From an uncultured Flavobacteriales bacterium (GTDB lineage Bacteria; Bacteroidota; Bacteroidia; Flavobacteriales_D; Crocinitomicaceae): a stretch of 46,381 nt of DNA. Positions 7,089-16,264 of the stretch are shown here, in pieces (positions within the stretch are counted from its first letter, which is position 1; every line of letters starts with the position of its first letter). Below the pieces are notes generated by a model. The model did not search any database. It was not told the origin of the DNA and worked only from the letters and a program-made list of their open reading frames with translations. The translations under genes were made by a program, and so were the position numbers. The stretch lies in NCBI GenBank assembly GCA_903860985.1, contig CAIOSO010000059.1, forward strand, positions 1 through 46,381, read 5' to 3'.

Positions 7089-8383
7089 TTTTTGTCGTTA
7101 TTTTTTTCAATTTCATTTACCTTAAAAGCGGAAGGCATTAATTCAGGGACAAGTTTAAGAATTAATGGGAGAAGTAGACTTCCTCCGGGTAAAAGAAATA
7201 AAGCTAAGGAGGGCATGGTTTTAATTAAATCTAGGAATTGTGTGCGAACTTGCTCCTTTTCTTCTGAACTTAATTCTTCCTTTGTCGATTTCTGAATCAA
7301 TGACATCAATTCCTTGCTTTCACGCATTTCTTGAATCAGCTTGTCTTTGTTCCTTCCGATTATTCGAATCCATCGTTTACTGAAAGCTTTGAAGACGTAA
7401 CTTGTTTCCGTCTCTGATTGAAAAACTAGTATTTCTGTATGATTCTGTAACATATATGCGCTACACATTTCTTTAGAATCTTGCATTTCTTTATCTGATA
7501 AACCCAGGGCATTCCCCAAGAATTTTAACTTTTTTAATTCAGCTTCAACTGGAACATGTGTCCCCTGAATCAGAAATAACCCTAGTTCAAAGGTGAATTT
7601 TGAAAGTAATTTATCTTTCACGCATTCTTTTTCAAGTAACTTCAAAGTAATTCCTGTCAGAATTCGGTTCTCAAAACTGGTTTTCATCGATTTATCTAAA
7701 TCTGTGGATGCTAAGAAGTGCCATAATACGCGCTGTTCCGTTTCCTCCGCATTATTATCGGTGTAAGCCGCATATATGACACCATTCATCAAGGAACTAG
7801 CATAGTCGCTGTAATGCCGTGAAAAGGACTGTATTTGACCTTCCAAAAATGTACGATACAGCACCACATCAAGAAAGACAAAGGCATTTGACAAGTGATT
7901 CAACCAATAATTTGCGCCAAAAAAGGTGCTCTTAACTTGAATACGTTGGGCTAAAATCTCCTCGATGTTTAAATTGACTTTGCCCGAAAAGACACGGTCA
8001 AACCAAGCAAAAACGCCAGCTTCTTTTGTGTCCCCGTAAAAAGCACTGAGGCTTTCTAGAAAGGCATCTTTATCAAATTCCCCTTGATTTTTTCGCAAAT
8101 AAGTGAATAACAAGGTTTCAAAAAGAAGCAATTTTAATTTTTCGTCATTCGTATACTTGGACGAATTTAATTGATTGGAAAACAACAGGTGTAAAGCGTT
8201 TCCGTAAACAAGTCCAGTGCGATGCGATACAAAATGAGTTAAGTCCGACTCAGTATTTTGAATCAGCTCTAAGTCTAAGGAAATAACTCCTTTTTCCAAG
8301 AGCTGAAAAAACTTGGGAATCCAATTTTTGGATCCGGGAGACAAAGTGTTTTTAAGGGAGGACATAACGCGCGGCAAGTCCAA
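7085..8383 (-). CDS. LETM1-related protein
   Basis: A 432-residue protein whose last about 80 residues (helical segment then P-S-L-A-L-F-L-L-P-G-G-S-L-L-L-P) match the LETM1-like motif of Flavobacteria 'LETM1-related biofilm-associated' proteins. The long N-terminal part is helical and lacks a signal peptide. In mitochondria LETM1 is a membrane protein linked to cation exchange and ribosome binding; the bacterial function is not established. The start at 8383 overlaps the upstream gene by 32 bases; methionine 7 (8365) would overlap by only 14 and is equally possible. It overlaps the next gene by 4 bases. Confidence 0.75.
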   Translation of the reverse strand: MDLPRVMSSLKNTLSPGSKNWIPKFFQLLEKGVISLDLELIQNTESDLTHFVSHRTGLVYGNALHLLFSNQLNSSKYTNDEKLKLLLFETLLFTYLRKNQGEFDKDAFLESLSAFYGDTKEAGVFAWFDRVFSGKVNLNIEEILAQRIQVKSTFFGANYWLNHLSNAFVFLDVVLYRTFLEGQIQSFSRHYSDYASSLMNGVIYAAYTDNNAEETEQRVLWHFLASTDLDKSMKTSFENRILTGITLKLLEKECVKDKLLSKFTFELGLFLIQGTHVPVEAELKKLKFLGNALGLSDKEMQDSKEMCSAYMLQNHTEILVFQSETETSYVFKAFSKRWIRIIGRNKDKLIQEMRESKELMSLIQKSTKEELSSEEKEQVRTQFLDLIKTMPSLALFLLPGGSLLLPLILKLVPELMPSAFKVNEIEKNNDKK

Positions 8384-12468: not shown

Positions 12469-12494
12469 TTGTTTCACTTTCTTCCTTAACTTTG
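12469..12494 (+). promoter_or_regulatory. Promoter of the TPP riboswitch transcript
   Basis: A -33-like TTG at 12469-12471 and an exact TAACTTTG (-7) at 12487-12494 are separated by 15 bases, slightly shorter than the usual 17-23. The expected start point is a few bases after 12494, which coincides with the first base of aptamer helix P1 (12499). That agreement supports the call. Confidence 0.6.
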
Positions 12495-12498
12495 CCCC

Positions 12499-12573
12499 GT
12501 CTCTAAGGGGTGCCGAAAGGCTGAGATTACACCCATTGAACCTGTAGGATAATGCCTGCGCAGGGAAGATGAC
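12499..12573 (+). ncRNA. TPP (thiamin pyrophosphate) riboswitch aptamer
   Basis: The conserved THI-element blocks are all present in order: GGGGTGCC (12507-12514), CTGAGAT (12521-12527), ACCC (12531-12534), GAACCTG (12538-12544), and the GGATAATGCC...GCAGGGA segment (12547-12566). P1 can be closed by pairing 12499-12504 with 12567-12573, with one bulged base. This aptamer binds thiamin pyrophosphate and normally lowers expression of the downstream gene when TPP is plentiful. It lies in the 5' leader of the TonB-dependent receptor gene at 12636. Confidence 0.96.
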
Positions 12574-12576
12574 CGA

Positions 12577-12648
12577 GCTAATTGTTATTTATTCACCAGG
12601 AATTAGCCCCTTGTTCTTGTTTAATTTTTTAGAAAATGAAAACAAGAA
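12577..12648 (+). promoter_or_regulatory. Putative riboswitch expression platform with start-codon hairpin
   Basis: Three complementarities can be read. GCTAATT (12577-12583) pairs with AATTAGC (12601-12607). CCCCTT (12607-12612) is complementary to AAGGGG (12505-12510) inside the aptamer. TTCTTGTTT (12614-12622) pairs perfectly over 9 bases with AAACAAGAA (12640-12648), leaving the start ATG (12636-12638) in the loop. There is no strong hairpin followed directly by a T run, so control at translation start seems more likely than termination. Which fold dominates with TPP bound is inference. Confidence 0.5.
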
Positions 12649-15104
12649 TTATTACCAGTATCCTATTTTTAAGTAGTTGTTATTTTGCTTTTTCGCAGCA
12701 AGCTATTCGCGGTGTAATTGAAGATCGAACCGGCACTTTTGTCCAAGCAGCACAAGTATCTGTTTTGAACACGAATGACCAAGTAAATTCAGATGCCCAA
12801 GGGAAATTTGAATTCACGCATTTACCGATTTCAGATTCTACCTATACCATTTTGGTGGAGAAACCGGGATTTTTACCACAATCAATGACGATTTCTTCCA
12901 CATCAAAAGAGGAGCTAAAGATTCTGCTTTTTACGAGTATGAAAACCTTGGAAGATGTGCAAGTTAGTACCACACGCTTATCAGATTATAACACGTCTGC
13001 TATTCTAATAAGAAAAATCAATCCGTTGGAGCGCAAGAACTTTGGACAAGACATACCCGTTCTTTTGGAGTCCACTCCTTCTTTGGTAACGACTTCCGAT
13101 GCAGGAACAGGCGTTGGTTATACGGGACTTCGCATTCGTGGTGTAGATGCTTCTCGCATCAATGTGACCATCAATGGAATTCCAGTAAATGATCCGGAAT
13201 CACACGATGTATATTGGGTAAATATGCCTGATTTAGCATCTTCGATAGAGAATATACAAATTCAACGTGGAGTTGGATCATCGACAAATGGTGCCGCAGC
13301 TTTTGGCGCAAGCGTGAACATTAAAACACAGGATATTTCGGAAAAACCATTTGGATCCATCGACCAAACGGTGGGTTCTTTTGGGACACATAAAACCACG
13401 GTTAAAGCAGGAACTGGTATCATCAATCAGCATTTTTCCCTAGAAACCAGAATGTCCAGCATTCAATCCAACGGTTACCTTGATCGTGCCACTTCAGATT
13501 TGAGATCGTATTTTCTTTCCGGCGCGTACATTGGAAAACAGTCTGTGTTAAAGGCCATCGTTTTTAGCGGGAAAGAAATGACCTACCAAGCGTGGTACGG
13601 AACACCAGAAAGTCGAGTGAAGGGCGATACAGCTGCCATGAATGCTTATGCTGATCGCAATGGATTGAGTTCTGAAGACCGTCAAAATCTATTGAATGCG
13701 GGAAGGACTTACAACTTTTACACCTACAAAAACGAAGTGGATAACTATCAACAAGATAACTATCAAATCCATTTCACCCATACCTTCAATGACAAATTGA
13801 TTTTGAACCTAGCCGCACACTATACCTACGGTCGTGGTTACTATGAACAATACCGCAAAGGCGAAAATCTAGCGGATTATGGGTTGAATTCGGTTGTTAT
13901 TGGATCTGATACCATCCAACAAACAGATTTGATTCGTCGCTTATGGCTGGACAATGATTTTGTTGGAGCCGTTTATGGACTTACCTATAAACCAACAGCT
14001 CATTTGGATTTTGTTTTGGGCGGATCCGCAAATACGTATTTTGGCGGACATTTTGGTGAATTGGTTTGGGCACAGTATGCATCAAACAGTGAAATTTACC
14101 AACGCTACTATAGCAACGATTCCAGAAAATCAGAAGTTAGTTCCTACCTAAAAGCAGTATACAAAAAAGACCGATTTGATGTTTATACCGATTTACAATT
14201 TAGACACGTGGATTACTCTTTTATTGGAAAAGAACTCGTGAATGGAATTCCAGTCGACGTGACTCAAGCAGTTCAATTTAATTTCTTGAATCCAAAGGTT
14301 GGTGGAAGCTTTAAAATCAACTCCAACCAAATGTTATTCTTGAACGGTGGAATCAGTCACCGTGAACCCGTTCGTGCAGATTTCATTGCTAGTACCGCTG
14401 AAAATCGTCCGACTTTTGAAACCTTGCAAGATGTGGAGTTTGGACATCAAATCAATACAAGCAGATTCAGTTTAACGACGAATCTTTACTATATGAATTA
14501 CCAAAATCAATTATTGTTAACTGGAGAGATCAGCGATGTGGGAACCTACATTCACACCAATGTGACCAAAAGTTACCGAATGGGTGTGGAGGTGTATGGA
14601 TCCTATCGTTTTGATAAAAAACTGAAATTGACAGGTGGAATTACCCTCAGTCAAAATAAAATTGCGCAATTCAATGAATACGTGGATACGTATTTAGATA
14701 CACTGCCTTATTATACGCAGCAAGCGATTACTCATACGAATGCAGACATGTCCTTTTCGCCAAATGTTATTGGAAATATTGGATTTGAATGGATGCCGAT
14801 TGACAATTTCAACATCGCTTGGATGACGAAATTAGTGGGACGACAGTACTTGGATAACACCGGAAACATCAGTCGAAGTATCGATCCGTTTAATTTCTCC
14901 AACGTGCAATTCAACTACTCCATTTTCGATAAATTCTGTAAGGAAATCCAATTTGGAGTGATGATCAACAATGTATTCAATCAAATGTATTCGAATAATG
15001 GTTACACGTTTTCATATGTCTCTGGTGGACAAACGACCACCGAGAATTTCTACTATCCTCAAGCTGGAAGAAATTTCATGGTTCGTGCGCTCTTAAAGTT
15101 TTAA
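12636..15104 (+). CDS. TonB-dependent outer-membrane receptor, probable thiamin (or thiamin precursor) uptake
   Basis: An 822-residue TonB-dependent receptor. There is a signal peptide (to about residue 21, A-F-S-Q), a carboxypeptidase-regulatory-like domain (about 23-105), a plug (about 120-235, with L-R-I-R-G-V-D-A-S-R and N-G-I-P-V-N-D-P-E) and a C-terminal barrel ending in aromatic-rich strands (final residues L-L-K-F). The leader carries a TPP riboswitch, so thiamin or a thiamin-related compound is the likely substrate; Bacteroidota outer-membrane thiamin receptors under THI elements are known. No inner-membrane thiamin transporter or thi biosynthesis gene is next to it. The following gene begins about 26 bases after the stop. 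Confidence 0.92.
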   Translation: MKTRIITSILFLSSCYFAFSQQAIRGVIEDRTGTFVQAAQVSVLNTNDQVNSDAQGKFEFTHLPISDSTYTILVEKPGFLPQSMTISSTSKEELKILLFTSMKTLEDVQVSTTRLSDYNTSAILIRKINPLERKNFGQDIPVLLESTPSLVTTSDAGTGVGYTGLRIRGVDASRINVTINGIPVNDPESHDVYWVNMPDLASSIENIQIQRGVGSSTNGAAAFGASVNIKTQDISEKPFGSIDQTVGSFGTHKTTVKAGTGIINQHFSLETRMSSIQSNGYLDRATSDLRSYFLSGAYIGKQSVLKAIVFSGKEMTYQAWYGTPESRVKGDTAAMNAYADRNGLSSEDRQNLLNAGRTYNFYTYKNEVDNYQQDNYQIHFTHTFNDKLILNLAAHYTYGRGYYEQYRKGENLADYGLNSVVIGSDTIQQTDLIRRLWLDNDFVGAVYGLTYKPTAHLDFVLGGSANTYFGGHFGELVWAQYASNSEIYQRYYSNDSRKSEVSSYLKAVYKKDRFDVYTDLQFRHVDYSFIGKELVNGIPVDVTQAVQFNFLNPKVGGSFKINSNQMLFLNGGISHREPVRADFIASTAENRPTFETLQDVEFGHQINTSRFSLTTNLYYMNYQNQLLLTGEISDVGTYIHTNVTKSYRMGVEVYGSYRFDKKLKLTGGITLSQNKIAQFNEYVDTYLDTLPYYTQQAITHTNADMSFSPNVIGNIGFEWMPIDNFNIAWMTKLVGRQYLDNTGNISRSIDPFNFSNVQFNYSIFDKFCKEIQFGVMINNVFNQMYSNNGYTFSYVSGGQTTTENFYYPQAGRNFMVRALLKF

Positions 15105-15130
15105 TTGTACTTTTGAGGAAACTTAGAACG

Positions 15131-16264
15131 ATGAAATTTCTACTTTCCTTAAGCTGTTTATTGAGTGTTTCCACGCTGTTTGCACAAGTGGATGTTATTG
15201 TTGGTGGCACGCCTGAACCAATGTTGTTGAGCATTGCTACACCAGATTCCTTAGTAAATTTCCCCGATACGGAAGCTCAATACCCAGGTGGACCAGATTC
15301 CTTGAATGAATTCATTTTTGTGAATTTTATCCTACCAGATGATACAATGGATATTGAATTCAACGATCAACACGTTTACCTCTCCTTTATCGTTGAGAAG
15401 GATGGTTCTTTGACGAACATCGTTGTAGAAAAAGGCGTGAATCAAGTGTACGATTCTATTTGTGTAGCAGTTGTTCAGCTTATGCCTAACTGGATTCCAG
15501 CTCAGAAAAATGGTCTTGCAGTTCGATCATTAATGCGCTTACCAATTAGCATTGATGACGCCATTATGGGAACGGATTTTGAAGATTTCTCGGAAGAAGA
15601 TTGGGAAGATGAAGAGGAGGAAGGACGAAAATTCGGTCAAGGACATTGGGCTGGGCTTGACATTTACATGTCTCAGTTTATGAATGACCAACGAGAAATG
15701 CAATTTAATAATCACCCATACTGGGAAAATAACGAAGTGAAATCCATCGGGGTGAATTACAACCTATTCGATTTGAAATTCCCAATTATTAAAGAACATT
15801 TAGGCATTACAACAGGACTAGGAATTGGCTATCAAAATTATAGTTTCCGAAATAATTATGTCCTTCAGCATACAGCAGATACGATTTTTGCTGTTAGTGA
15901 TACTATTTTCGATTTCAAATCCAATAAATTGAATGTAGGAACAATCTCAATCCCCTTACTGTTAGATTATTCATCGAACAAGAAGTTTGAGAAAAGCTAC
16001 TTTATGGCAGTAGGTGTCATTGGCACATATAATTATGGTACAAAACAACGAACAACGGGTACCTATGCGAACGGTGATTCATTCGATAATTCAACTATTT
16101 CTGCTTTTAACATGAATCGTTGGACTTTAGATGCCACAGTGCGCATCGGTTACGGTCACTTTGGTATGTTCGTGAGCTATCAATTAAATACAATGTTTAA
16201 AACGGGTCATACAGTTGCTGTTTATCCGTTCCGTATTGGATTTAATGTACTCTTCGGAATTTAG
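15131..16264 (+). CDS. Exported protein with TonB-C-like domain fused to an outer-membrane barrel-like domain
   Basis: I chose ATG 15131, which gives a good signal peptide (M-K-F-L-L-S-L-S-C-L-L-S, cleavage near F-A-Q); an upstream in-frame TTG at 15113 would only add an unneeded six residues. The 377-residue protein has a TonB C-terminal-like fold at about 50-145 (V-Y-L-S-F-I-V-E-K-D-G-S, then A-V-V-Q-L-M-P-N-W-I-P-A). Next comes an acidic linker (E-D-W-E-D-E-E-E-E-G), then about 200 residues resembling a PorT-type outer-membrane beta barrel. It has no N-terminal anchor other than the signal peptide, unlike true TonB. It follows the riboswitch-controlled receptor closely, so it may share its transcript. 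The fusion and its role are unclear. Confidence 0.7.
   Translation: MKFLLSLSCLLSVSTLFAQVDVIVGGTPEPMLLSIATPDSLVNFPDTEAQYPGGPDSLNEFIFVNFILPDDTMDIEFNDQHVYLSFIVEKDGSLTNIVVEKGVNQVYDSICVAVVQLMPNWIPAQKNGLAVRSLMRLPISIDDAIMGTDFEDFSEEDWEDEEEEGRKFGQGHWAGLDIYMSQFMNDQREMQFNNHPYWENNEVKSIGVNYNLFDLKFPIIKEHLGITTGLGIGYQNYSFRNNYVLQHTADTIFAVSDTIFDFKSNKLNVGTISIPLLLDYSSNKKFEKSYFMAVGVIGTYNYGTKQRTTGTYANGDSFDNSTISAFNMNRWTLDATVRIGYGHFGMFVSYQLNTMFKTGHTVAVYPFRIGFNVLFGI

Follow-up and report, generated by a model that had tools for sequence, protein, structure and literature searches.

A predicted thiamin receptor under a TPP riboswitch, its genus-specific neighbour and a candidate thiamin kinase in a probable auxotroph of the Crocinitomicaceae

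The window, a stretch of 46,381 nucleotides (positions 1 to 46,381 of contig CAIOSO010000059.1) from an uncultured Flavobacteriales bacterium (assembly GCA_903860985.1; family Crocinitomicaceae), carries a gene for a TonB-dependent receptor preceded by a TPP riboswitch and followed, 26 nt past its stop codon, by a gene for an exported fusion protein. All elements of the original prediction (promoter, THI element, receptor and fusion protein) proved to be real, as judged by motif, covariance-model and Pfam matches. The parts that were established by computation are the following:

12487..12494, forward strand: sigma-A -7 box TAACTTTG (pattern match; predicted +1 around 12499)
12496..12583, forward strand: TPP riboswitch aptamer (THI element), RF00059 (48.7 bits, E 6e-9 in a 221-base search)
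12600..12650, forward strand: putative expression platform up to the start codon, GAATTAGCCCCTTGTTCTTG ... ATGAAAACAAG (leader alignment; CCCC could pair with the GGGG of the aptamer)
12636..15104, forward strand: TonB-dependent receptor, predicted thiamin receptor of the OMthi/Omr1 type, 822 aa (Pfam domains, upstream TPP switch)
15108..15115, forward strand: sigma-A -7 box TACTTTTG between the receptor stop and the second gene (pattern match; predicted +1 around 15120, 11-nt leader)
15131..16264, forward strand: exported TonB_C-like and outer-membrane barrel fusion protein, 377 aa (profile matches; low-confidence structure model)
15371..15547, forward strand: TonB_C-like domain, aa 81-139 (profile match and aligned relatives)
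15641..16180, forward strand: OMP_b-brl_2 barrel, aa 171-350 (profile match)

The riboswitch match spans the full length of the model, yet its 48.7 bits fall short of the curated Rfam cut-off for RF00059 (54.3 bits), which is why a default scan of the window lists no riboswitch. The element can be assigned to the family on the basis of its conserved core and its location in 5' leaders upstream of thiamin-type genes. Visual inspection showed the core motifs, a short P3 and a P1 that can form with one bulge. No other match at E<=10 occurs in the genome (2.44 Mb, 98.7% complete), and the cut-off is passed in 10 of the 18 genus genomes with a match and in 107 of the 150 genomes of the family. A scan with the sigma-70 consensus returned 11 sites against 11.9 expected and was hence not used as promoter evidence; the Bacteroidota sigma-A -7 consensus (TAHHTTTG at -12 to -5, as given in a passage of PMC6847099) was taken instead. 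Of 37 leaders, 33 have such a box ahead of the aptamer, and in 31 of these it lies 20-21 nt before the GGGGTG; the predicted +1 near 12499 is about where the aptamer starts. The -7 box is not rare as such (61 in the window against 53 expected), and the conservation concerns its position. A stricter promoter pattern (TTG, 17 bases, TANNTTTG) had no match at either the 12487 or the 15108 box.

The platform up to the start codon is nearly invariant in the 30 leaders that were aligned out of 37 (left out were the near copies L092 and L094, and L106, L108, L127, L128 and L131); the leaders of L106, L108, L128 and L131 depart from it. In the minimum free-energy fold of the leader AAGGGG is paired with CCCCUU, a fold no better than that of shuffled sequences (z 0.11), and the GGGG-CCCC pairing may have a role in the switch. 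Hairpins at the start codon contained on average 8.8 pairs in the 37 leaders versus 7.4 in shuffles, and the observed value was attained by a median fraction of 0.32 of the shuffles. Given this weak excess, the hairpins were rejected as proof of translational control, which they do not establish, and were retained as a hint. The switch would lower receptor output most likely at the translation step. Consistent with such control, the transcripts of the switch-linked transport operons of B. thetaiotaomicron showed no significant change with thiamine, according to passages of PMC5613172.

The receptor matches CarboxypepD_reg and Plug above the Pfam cut-offs (Plug E 2e-10) and OMP_b-brl_3 below its cut-off (E 6e-5), and a match to TonB_dep_Rec_b-barrel (E 6e-19) was obtained for its relative L193. 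With a plug and an outer-membrane barrel it qualifies as a TonB-dependent receptor, whose substrate is predicted from the riboswitch to be thiamin. Within the 150 genomes of the family a TPP switch was found just upstream of 88 of the 95 receptor matches, which supports the proposed riboswitch control and makes the receptor half of the locus an ordinary Bacteroidota thiamin-uptake gene. The OMthi/Omr1-PnuT-Tnr3 system for thiamin uptake in Bacteroidota, which is under TPP riboswitches (B. thetaiotaomicron BT2390, BT2396-BT2397; passages of PMC5613172), likewise has the switch directly before a TonB-dependent receptor, and a PnuC-family transporter is encoded in the genome of the window as well. 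Unlike in that system, the transporter gene lies outside the receptor operon, no TPK (Tnr3) was detected while a NadR-like AAA_28 kinase adjoins PnuC, and a genus-specific fusion gene stands downstream of the receptor.

The fusion protein matches OMP_b-brl_2 (E 3e-9) and, below the cut-off, TonB_C (E 0.007). The TonB_C profile also recognises 13 of the 17 aligned relatives at E<=0.01, the best of them at 9e-15, so the TonB_C-like domain is probably real. Three genus members have the barrel but lack TonB_C. Structure prediction, suggested earlier as a check, returned OmpA and Ail as the best solved matches, with a model of such low confidence (pLDDT 59) that it was used for the order of elements alone; its one N-terminal helix (aa 2-16) is read here as a signal peptide, the alternative being an inner-membrane anchor that reaches ExbBD as in TonB energy transducers. 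Both domains are recognisably those of Bacteroidota proteins with a TonB C-terminal domain (PF03544) or an OMP_b-brl_2 domain (PF13568). Different from these proteins, the two domains are fused here behind an apparent signal peptide and the fusion adjoins this receptor, so far in this genus only among the loci compared. Inspection of the flanks of 17 barrel relatives outside the genus revealed that none adjoins a receptor gene and that about 10 adjoin S4-domain-like genes (by eye).

The gene pair is conserved within the genus, the fusion gene coming directly after the receptor in 17 of 19 genomes, and its conservation does not extend to the loci seen from other genera: 20 receptor loci were fetched from these, none with the fusion gene next, and it is likewise lacking there in all 71 named loci with an ORF after the receptor (L192-L195 excepted; some of the 71 are on the same contigs as other loci analysed). 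These counts speak against the fusion protein as a general partner in vitamin uptake. In two genus genomes (G148 and G127) the fusion gene lies away from the receptor, and in both the sole TPP match is found at the receptor and none near the fusion gene. A promoter between the two genes, combined with no co-regulation by thiamin, was earlier named as evidence against joint uptake; a candidate for such a promoter is the -7 box at 15108-15115, and no -33 box was seen before it in the window. A TAnnTTTG box starting 3-5 nt past the receptor stop occurs in 12 of the 19 non-redundant pairs (from 21, as two genomes occurred twice: L192 = L094, L193 = L101) and is missing in 7, as compared to 9 of 392 other tandem pairs, which may include loci counted twice, and 5 of 158 when the control is limited to gaps of 5-60 nt. 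This difference makes it likely that the second gene has its own promoter. The intergenic gap has no detected terminator, so that read-through is likely too, and the switch could still influence the second gene if it acts on transcription.

The retention of the pair in 17 of the 19 genus genomes argues for some functional link. The neighbourhood persists in members of the genus with receptors that share 48-60% identity with that of the window, while several flanking genes vary and only about half of those members retain the aspartate-semialdehyde dehydrogenase gene upstream. These observations speak against the possibility of a second gene that is stably located beside the receptor without any functional link to it; the presence of its own promoter box and the location of its extra-genus barrel relatives, away from receptor genes and often beside S4-domain-like ones, speak for it. 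We regard this possibility, which is compatible with the explanation preferred below, as a serious one that falls somewhat short of probable.

The original prediction stated that PnuT is absent, which is true of the locus alone. Elsewhere in the host genome (G000:C124:34328-34864) there is a gene for a PnuC-family transporter, as identified by PF04973 above the cut-off (E 4e-37); its NCBIfam name is PnuC, and from its context we predict it to be PnuT. A NadR-like AAA_28 kinase gene (G000:C124:33861-34310) adjoins it in the same orientation. The encoded protein has 161 aa and comprises the kinase part only, scoring 58 bits for NadR against a cut-off of 341, so it is no full-length NadR with an adenylyltransferase domain. 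ThiL is encoded on C110 (E 2.9e-97). In profile searches of the draft genomes ThiC was found in 0 of 41 genus genomes, that of the host included, and neither ThiE nor TPK was detected in the host genome. Considering these absences next to the presence of ThiL, the organism is a probable thiamin auxotroph.

How such cells, with no detectable TPK, convert thiamin to TPP is the question raised by this gene content. When only PnuC and AAA_28 matches above the cut-offs were counted (AAA_28 among the matches listed, the rest being weaker) and adjacency was limited to 600 nt, AAA_28 was adjacent to PnuC in 80 of the 83 PnuC-bearing family genomes without TPK and in 0 of the 10 with TPK (n=93). This contrast suggests an unrecognised thiamin kinase. 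The three exceptions are G021, which is 59% complete, G056, where AAA_28 stands beside a broken PnuC piece and the intact PnuC lies elsewhere, and G098, where one ORF separates the two genes beyond the 600-nt limit. Nine receptor genomes have neither TPK nor the pair (AAA_28 among the matches listed), and most of these are less than 90% complete. The Fisher p of 3.5e-11 for the pair versus TPK takes no account of kinship. TPK was seen to change state 4 times on the PnuC tree, which offers 3 independent pairs on supported branches (4 on all); nearly all pairings are opposite in direction, with a sign test p of 0.25 (L138 was left out, and L134 was entered as a pair though without AAA_28 within 1.5 kb). 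The opposition is for these reasons suggestive and not proven. A strict phylum-wide exclusion was rejected as false, as L227, L229, L230, L232, L236 and L240 (from 80 named loci) have TPK-like and AAA_28-like genes near the receptor. ThiL does not settle the matter either, because it is present also in the 11 TPK genomes. On balance we lean towards the view that the PnuT-paired AAA_28 protein is a NadR-related thiamin kinase, which would form TMP for conversion to TPP by ThiL and would replace TPK in auxotrophs of the family and perhaps of more Bacteroidota.

The main rival substrate is nicotinamide riboside, for whose uptake and phosphorylation PnuC and NadR are an established pair. The C124 arrangement resembles that pair in that a PnuC-family permease stands beside a P-loop protein related to the NadR kinase domain. 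If the C124 pair salvages nicotinamide riboside, thiamin would reach TPP by another route, for instance with a ThiK-type kinase or by import of phosphorylated thiamin. G157 (L134) and G166 (L138), two genomes of the genus that are not among the 150, moreover have PnuC with no AAA_28 within 1.5 kb and no TPK. Some AAA_28-paired genus PnuC proteins group with NadR-linked PnuC. In all, five genus PnuC proteins (L133-L137) and L282, the G056 PnuC near a TPP match, fall into this grouping, which weakens a clean split between PnuT and PnuC by sequence. Against this, the AAA_28 protein is a single-domain kinase on its own branch, full-length NadR kinases forming a separate long branch, and its presence in the family is opposite to that of TPK among the matches listed. 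In addition, PnuC is found within 2.5 kb upstream of the receptor in 34 of the 95 receptor matches, and NadR in L283, L284 and L149 stands with PnuC beside another TonB-receptor-like gene. Salvage of nicotinamide riboside thus appears possible, albeit rather doubtful.

A NadR-like thiamin kinase was not found among the matches listed in searches of open-access PMC text, nor is one mentioned in the passages concerned of PMC6593275, PMC5613172, PMC12442306 and PMC10881298; the B1 salvage enzymes named in the first of these are ThiK, ThiM and ThiN. If the PnuT-linked AAA_28 protein is a thiamin kinase, many seemingly incomplete genomes would possess a complete salvage route, and a family now known just for its kinship with NadR would have to be re-annotated. 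The abstract of PMC10881298 states that most bacterioplankton cannot make thiamin, and the B1 gene expression of Baltic Sea Bacteroidetes was dominated by omr1 and pnuC (a passage of PMC12442306). Less importance attaches to the receptor-fusion unit itself, in which a known receptor is accompanied by a neighbour specific to the lineage.

Overall, we consider it probable that 12487-15104 is a known type of Bacteroidota thiamin-uptake gene in a probable auxotroph of a Crocinitomicaceae-type genus, with the rest of the route encoded elsewhere in the genome and a second gene under its own promoter. A sigma-A promoter would fire into the TPP riboswitch, which at plentiful TPP would lower production of the TonB-dependent thiamin receptor, most likely at translation; further steps would be provided by the predicted PnuT and the co-oriented NadR-like kinase on C124 and by ThiL on C110. 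Substrate, level of control and the expression and role of the second gene are what we infer here. The latter would be a genus-specific tandem neighbour encoding a small outer-membrane barrel to which a periplasmic TonB_C-like domain is attached, probably transcribed from the promoter at 15108-15115 with possible read-through from the receptor, and its product would most likely work at the outer membrane regardless of the thiamin level. The single, obligatory riboswitch-controlled transcript of the original prediction, in which the TonB_C-like domain of the fusion would, from its place at the outer membrane, dock on the plug of the receptor and aid thiamin uptake, agrees with the 26-nt gap, the lack of a detected terminator and the constancy of the pair amid changing flanks, but is unlikely in view of the fusion genes that stand apart from the receptor in two genus genomes, the lack of a fusion gene beside the receptor in the loci seen from other genera, the three genus members with the barrel alone, and the conserved promoter box in the intergenic gap of 12 of the 19 pairs.

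The anatomy described in the original prediction, a switch, a receptor and a gene for a TonB_C-like/barrel protein 26 nt further on, was confirmed by a match to RF00059 and by domain matches:

12496-12583, + strand: TPP aptamer (RF00059; 48.7 bits, E 6e-9)
12636-15104, + strand: TonB-dependent receptor (CarboxypepD_reg, Plug, part of the OMP barrel profile)
15108-15115: -7 box TACTTTTG, start predicted near 15120, with the ATG 11 nt further on
15131-16264, + strand: second gene, 26 nt past the receptor (OMP_b-brl_2 match, weak TonB_C match)

A default scan of the window reports no TPP switch, because the score of 48.7 bits is below the Rfam cut-off (54.3). The three nearest relatives have a match at the same place, likewise of 48.7 bits, and a switch was recovered in 130 of the 150 family genomes at E<=0.01 (107 above the cut-off). 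Within the host genome (G000; 2.44 Mb, 191 contigs, 98.7% complete) the match is the sole one at E<=10. Of 37 leaders, 33 have a -7 box 5' of the aptamer, and the remaining four show TAATTTTA at that position. In the 30 of these 37 leaders that were aligned (window 12600-12650), GAATTAGCCCCTTGTTCTTG and the receptor's first codons, ATGAAAACAAG, are almost letter-invariant, and the conserved platform therefore extends into the receptor start; this stretch was kept although identity between the receptors has dropped to about one half. We prefer a reading in which the switch acts on translation, since, according to two reports, Bacteroidota lack Shine-Dalgarno signals and tune initiation through mRNA structure (PMC6847099), and switch-linked transport transcripts of B. 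thetaiotaomicron show no significant response to thiamine (PMC5613172). Start-codon hairpins in the leaders were only weakly above shuffles.

The receptor half is ordinary, a unit of a known kind. The closest named receptor (88% identity) belongs to a Crocinitomicaceae MAG (JAGOBK010000006), and 94 of the 150 family genomes contain a receptor at E<=1e-60. A switch is found within 700 nt upstream of 88 of the 95 receptor hits in the family, and at least five of the seven others are located at a contig end, as judged by coordinates. Genome searches of G000 gave no match for ThiC, ThiE or TPK, and a full-length ThiL was found; on this gene content the organism should depend on external thiamin. 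In Algibacter pectinivorans (L263:5962-8353), a TPP switch (8256-8353) and, by eye, thiamin-biosynthesis-like genes come after the receptor, an arrangement that ties the receptor family to thiamin.

Conservation of the gene pair, which the original prediction had proposed to check, holds within the genus but not in the loci examined beyond it. By coordinates, the second gene lies directly 3' of the receptor in 17 of the 19 genus genomes of the draw; 14 of these proteins align over the TonB_C-like part and three (G115, G136, G145) are barrel only. In G148 and G127 it is located away from the receptor; each genome's single detected switch lies at the receptor. It was never next to the receptor in 20 receptor loci from other genera, and among 80 named loci it was downstream in four (L192-L195, all genus-like), five of the other 76 being uninformative for want of an ORF after the receptor. 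We read the second gene as a neighbour specific to this lineage. Of 17 aligned relatives, 13 showed TonB_C and 15 the barrel at E<=0.01. In a low-confidence structure model (five sequences, mean pLDDT 59), the order of elements is consistent with a helix at the N terminus, followed by a TonB_C-like unit, a linker rich in acidic residues and finally a barrel; the small barrels OmpA and Ail are its best solved matches. A paralogue of the fusion gene that has the barrel but lacks the TonB_C part (L143:3076-4119, contig G000:C128) adjoins, by eye, ECF-sigma-like and anti-sigma-like genes.

The second gene probably has its own promoter. Of 21 receptor-fusion pairs, 13 carry TAnnTTTG in the 30 nt past the receptor stop (12/19 without two genomes seen twice), with the motif beginning 3-5 nt past the stop, as compared to 9 of 392 other tandem pairs of the same loci (5/158 for gaps of 5-60 nt). 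No terminator was found between the two genes in the window, so read-through into the second gene is still conceivable. The original prediction is thus partly supported: the switch-controlled receptor and the genus-conserved pair stand, but the predicted promoter argues against the reading as one unit, being of the kind that the original prediction would take as refuting it if the two genes were not co-regulated by thiamin.

The most interesting point lies outside the window, as a candidate thiamin kinase beside PnuT, a transporter that the original prediction had noted as absent from the locus:

G000:C124:34328-34864: PnuC-family gene (PF04973; protein E 4e-37)
L142:5329-6383 (G000:C124): PnuC and NadR-like AAA_28 kinase, candidate thiamin transporter and kinase, then a SCO1/SenC gene

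The AAA_28 protein (161 aa) is encoded directly 3' of PnuC on the same strand and is similar to NadR in its kinase portion (58 bits in NCBIfam versus 341 required; NadR chains matched by sequence). A relative (L198) gave a confident model (pLDDT 96) with NadR as nearest fold (8x7f, TM 0.90 over the query). PnuC is found upstream of 34 of the 95 receptor hits (same strand, <=2.5 kb), none of them in the genus, and AAA_28 usually sits between the two.

Within the family, 93 genomes contain PnuC, and AAA_28 lies within 600 nt downstream of it in 80 of the 83 that lack TPK versus none of the 10 that have it. In two TPK-bearing genomes, G018 and G126, PnuC still precedes switch and receptor, but AAA_28 is missing in between. 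In G056, AAA_28 adjoins a broken PnuC piece (L281, G056:C78); an intact PnuC (L282, G056:C23) lies ~95 nt past a weak TPP match, which at 38.9 bits does not reach the cut-off. TPK genomes are spread over several parts of the PnuC tree (four changes of state); nearly all of the few independent pairs point in the expected direction, but their number does not suffice for significance (sign test p 0.25). In a 76-row tree, all single-domain AAA_28 proteins retrieved from the family fall into one group (98/90), from which full-length NadR kinases are set apart on a separate branch. Together this is suggestive of a mutual replacement of TPK and the PnuC-adjacent AAA_28, which fits best with a candidate thiamin kinase that would make TMP for ThiL. 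Nicotinamide riboside stays a serious rival as substrate, because ThiL is also found in TPK genomes and a ThiK-type kinase is possible. Against the thiamin kinase reading, the exclusion is not strict outside the family, and within the genus another two genomes, G157 (L134) and G166 (L138), have PnuC with neither AAA_28 within 1.5 kb nor TPK; these may possess another kinase or an NAD-type PnuC.

At three loci (L283, G055:C226; L284, G027:C3; L149, G132:C119), with no TPP match among those listed for the family genomes, PnuC and a NadR of full length (328-336 aa) come directly after another TonB-receptor-like protein (662-676 aa; L149 by eye), possibly a cluster that takes up an NAD precursor across the outer membrane.
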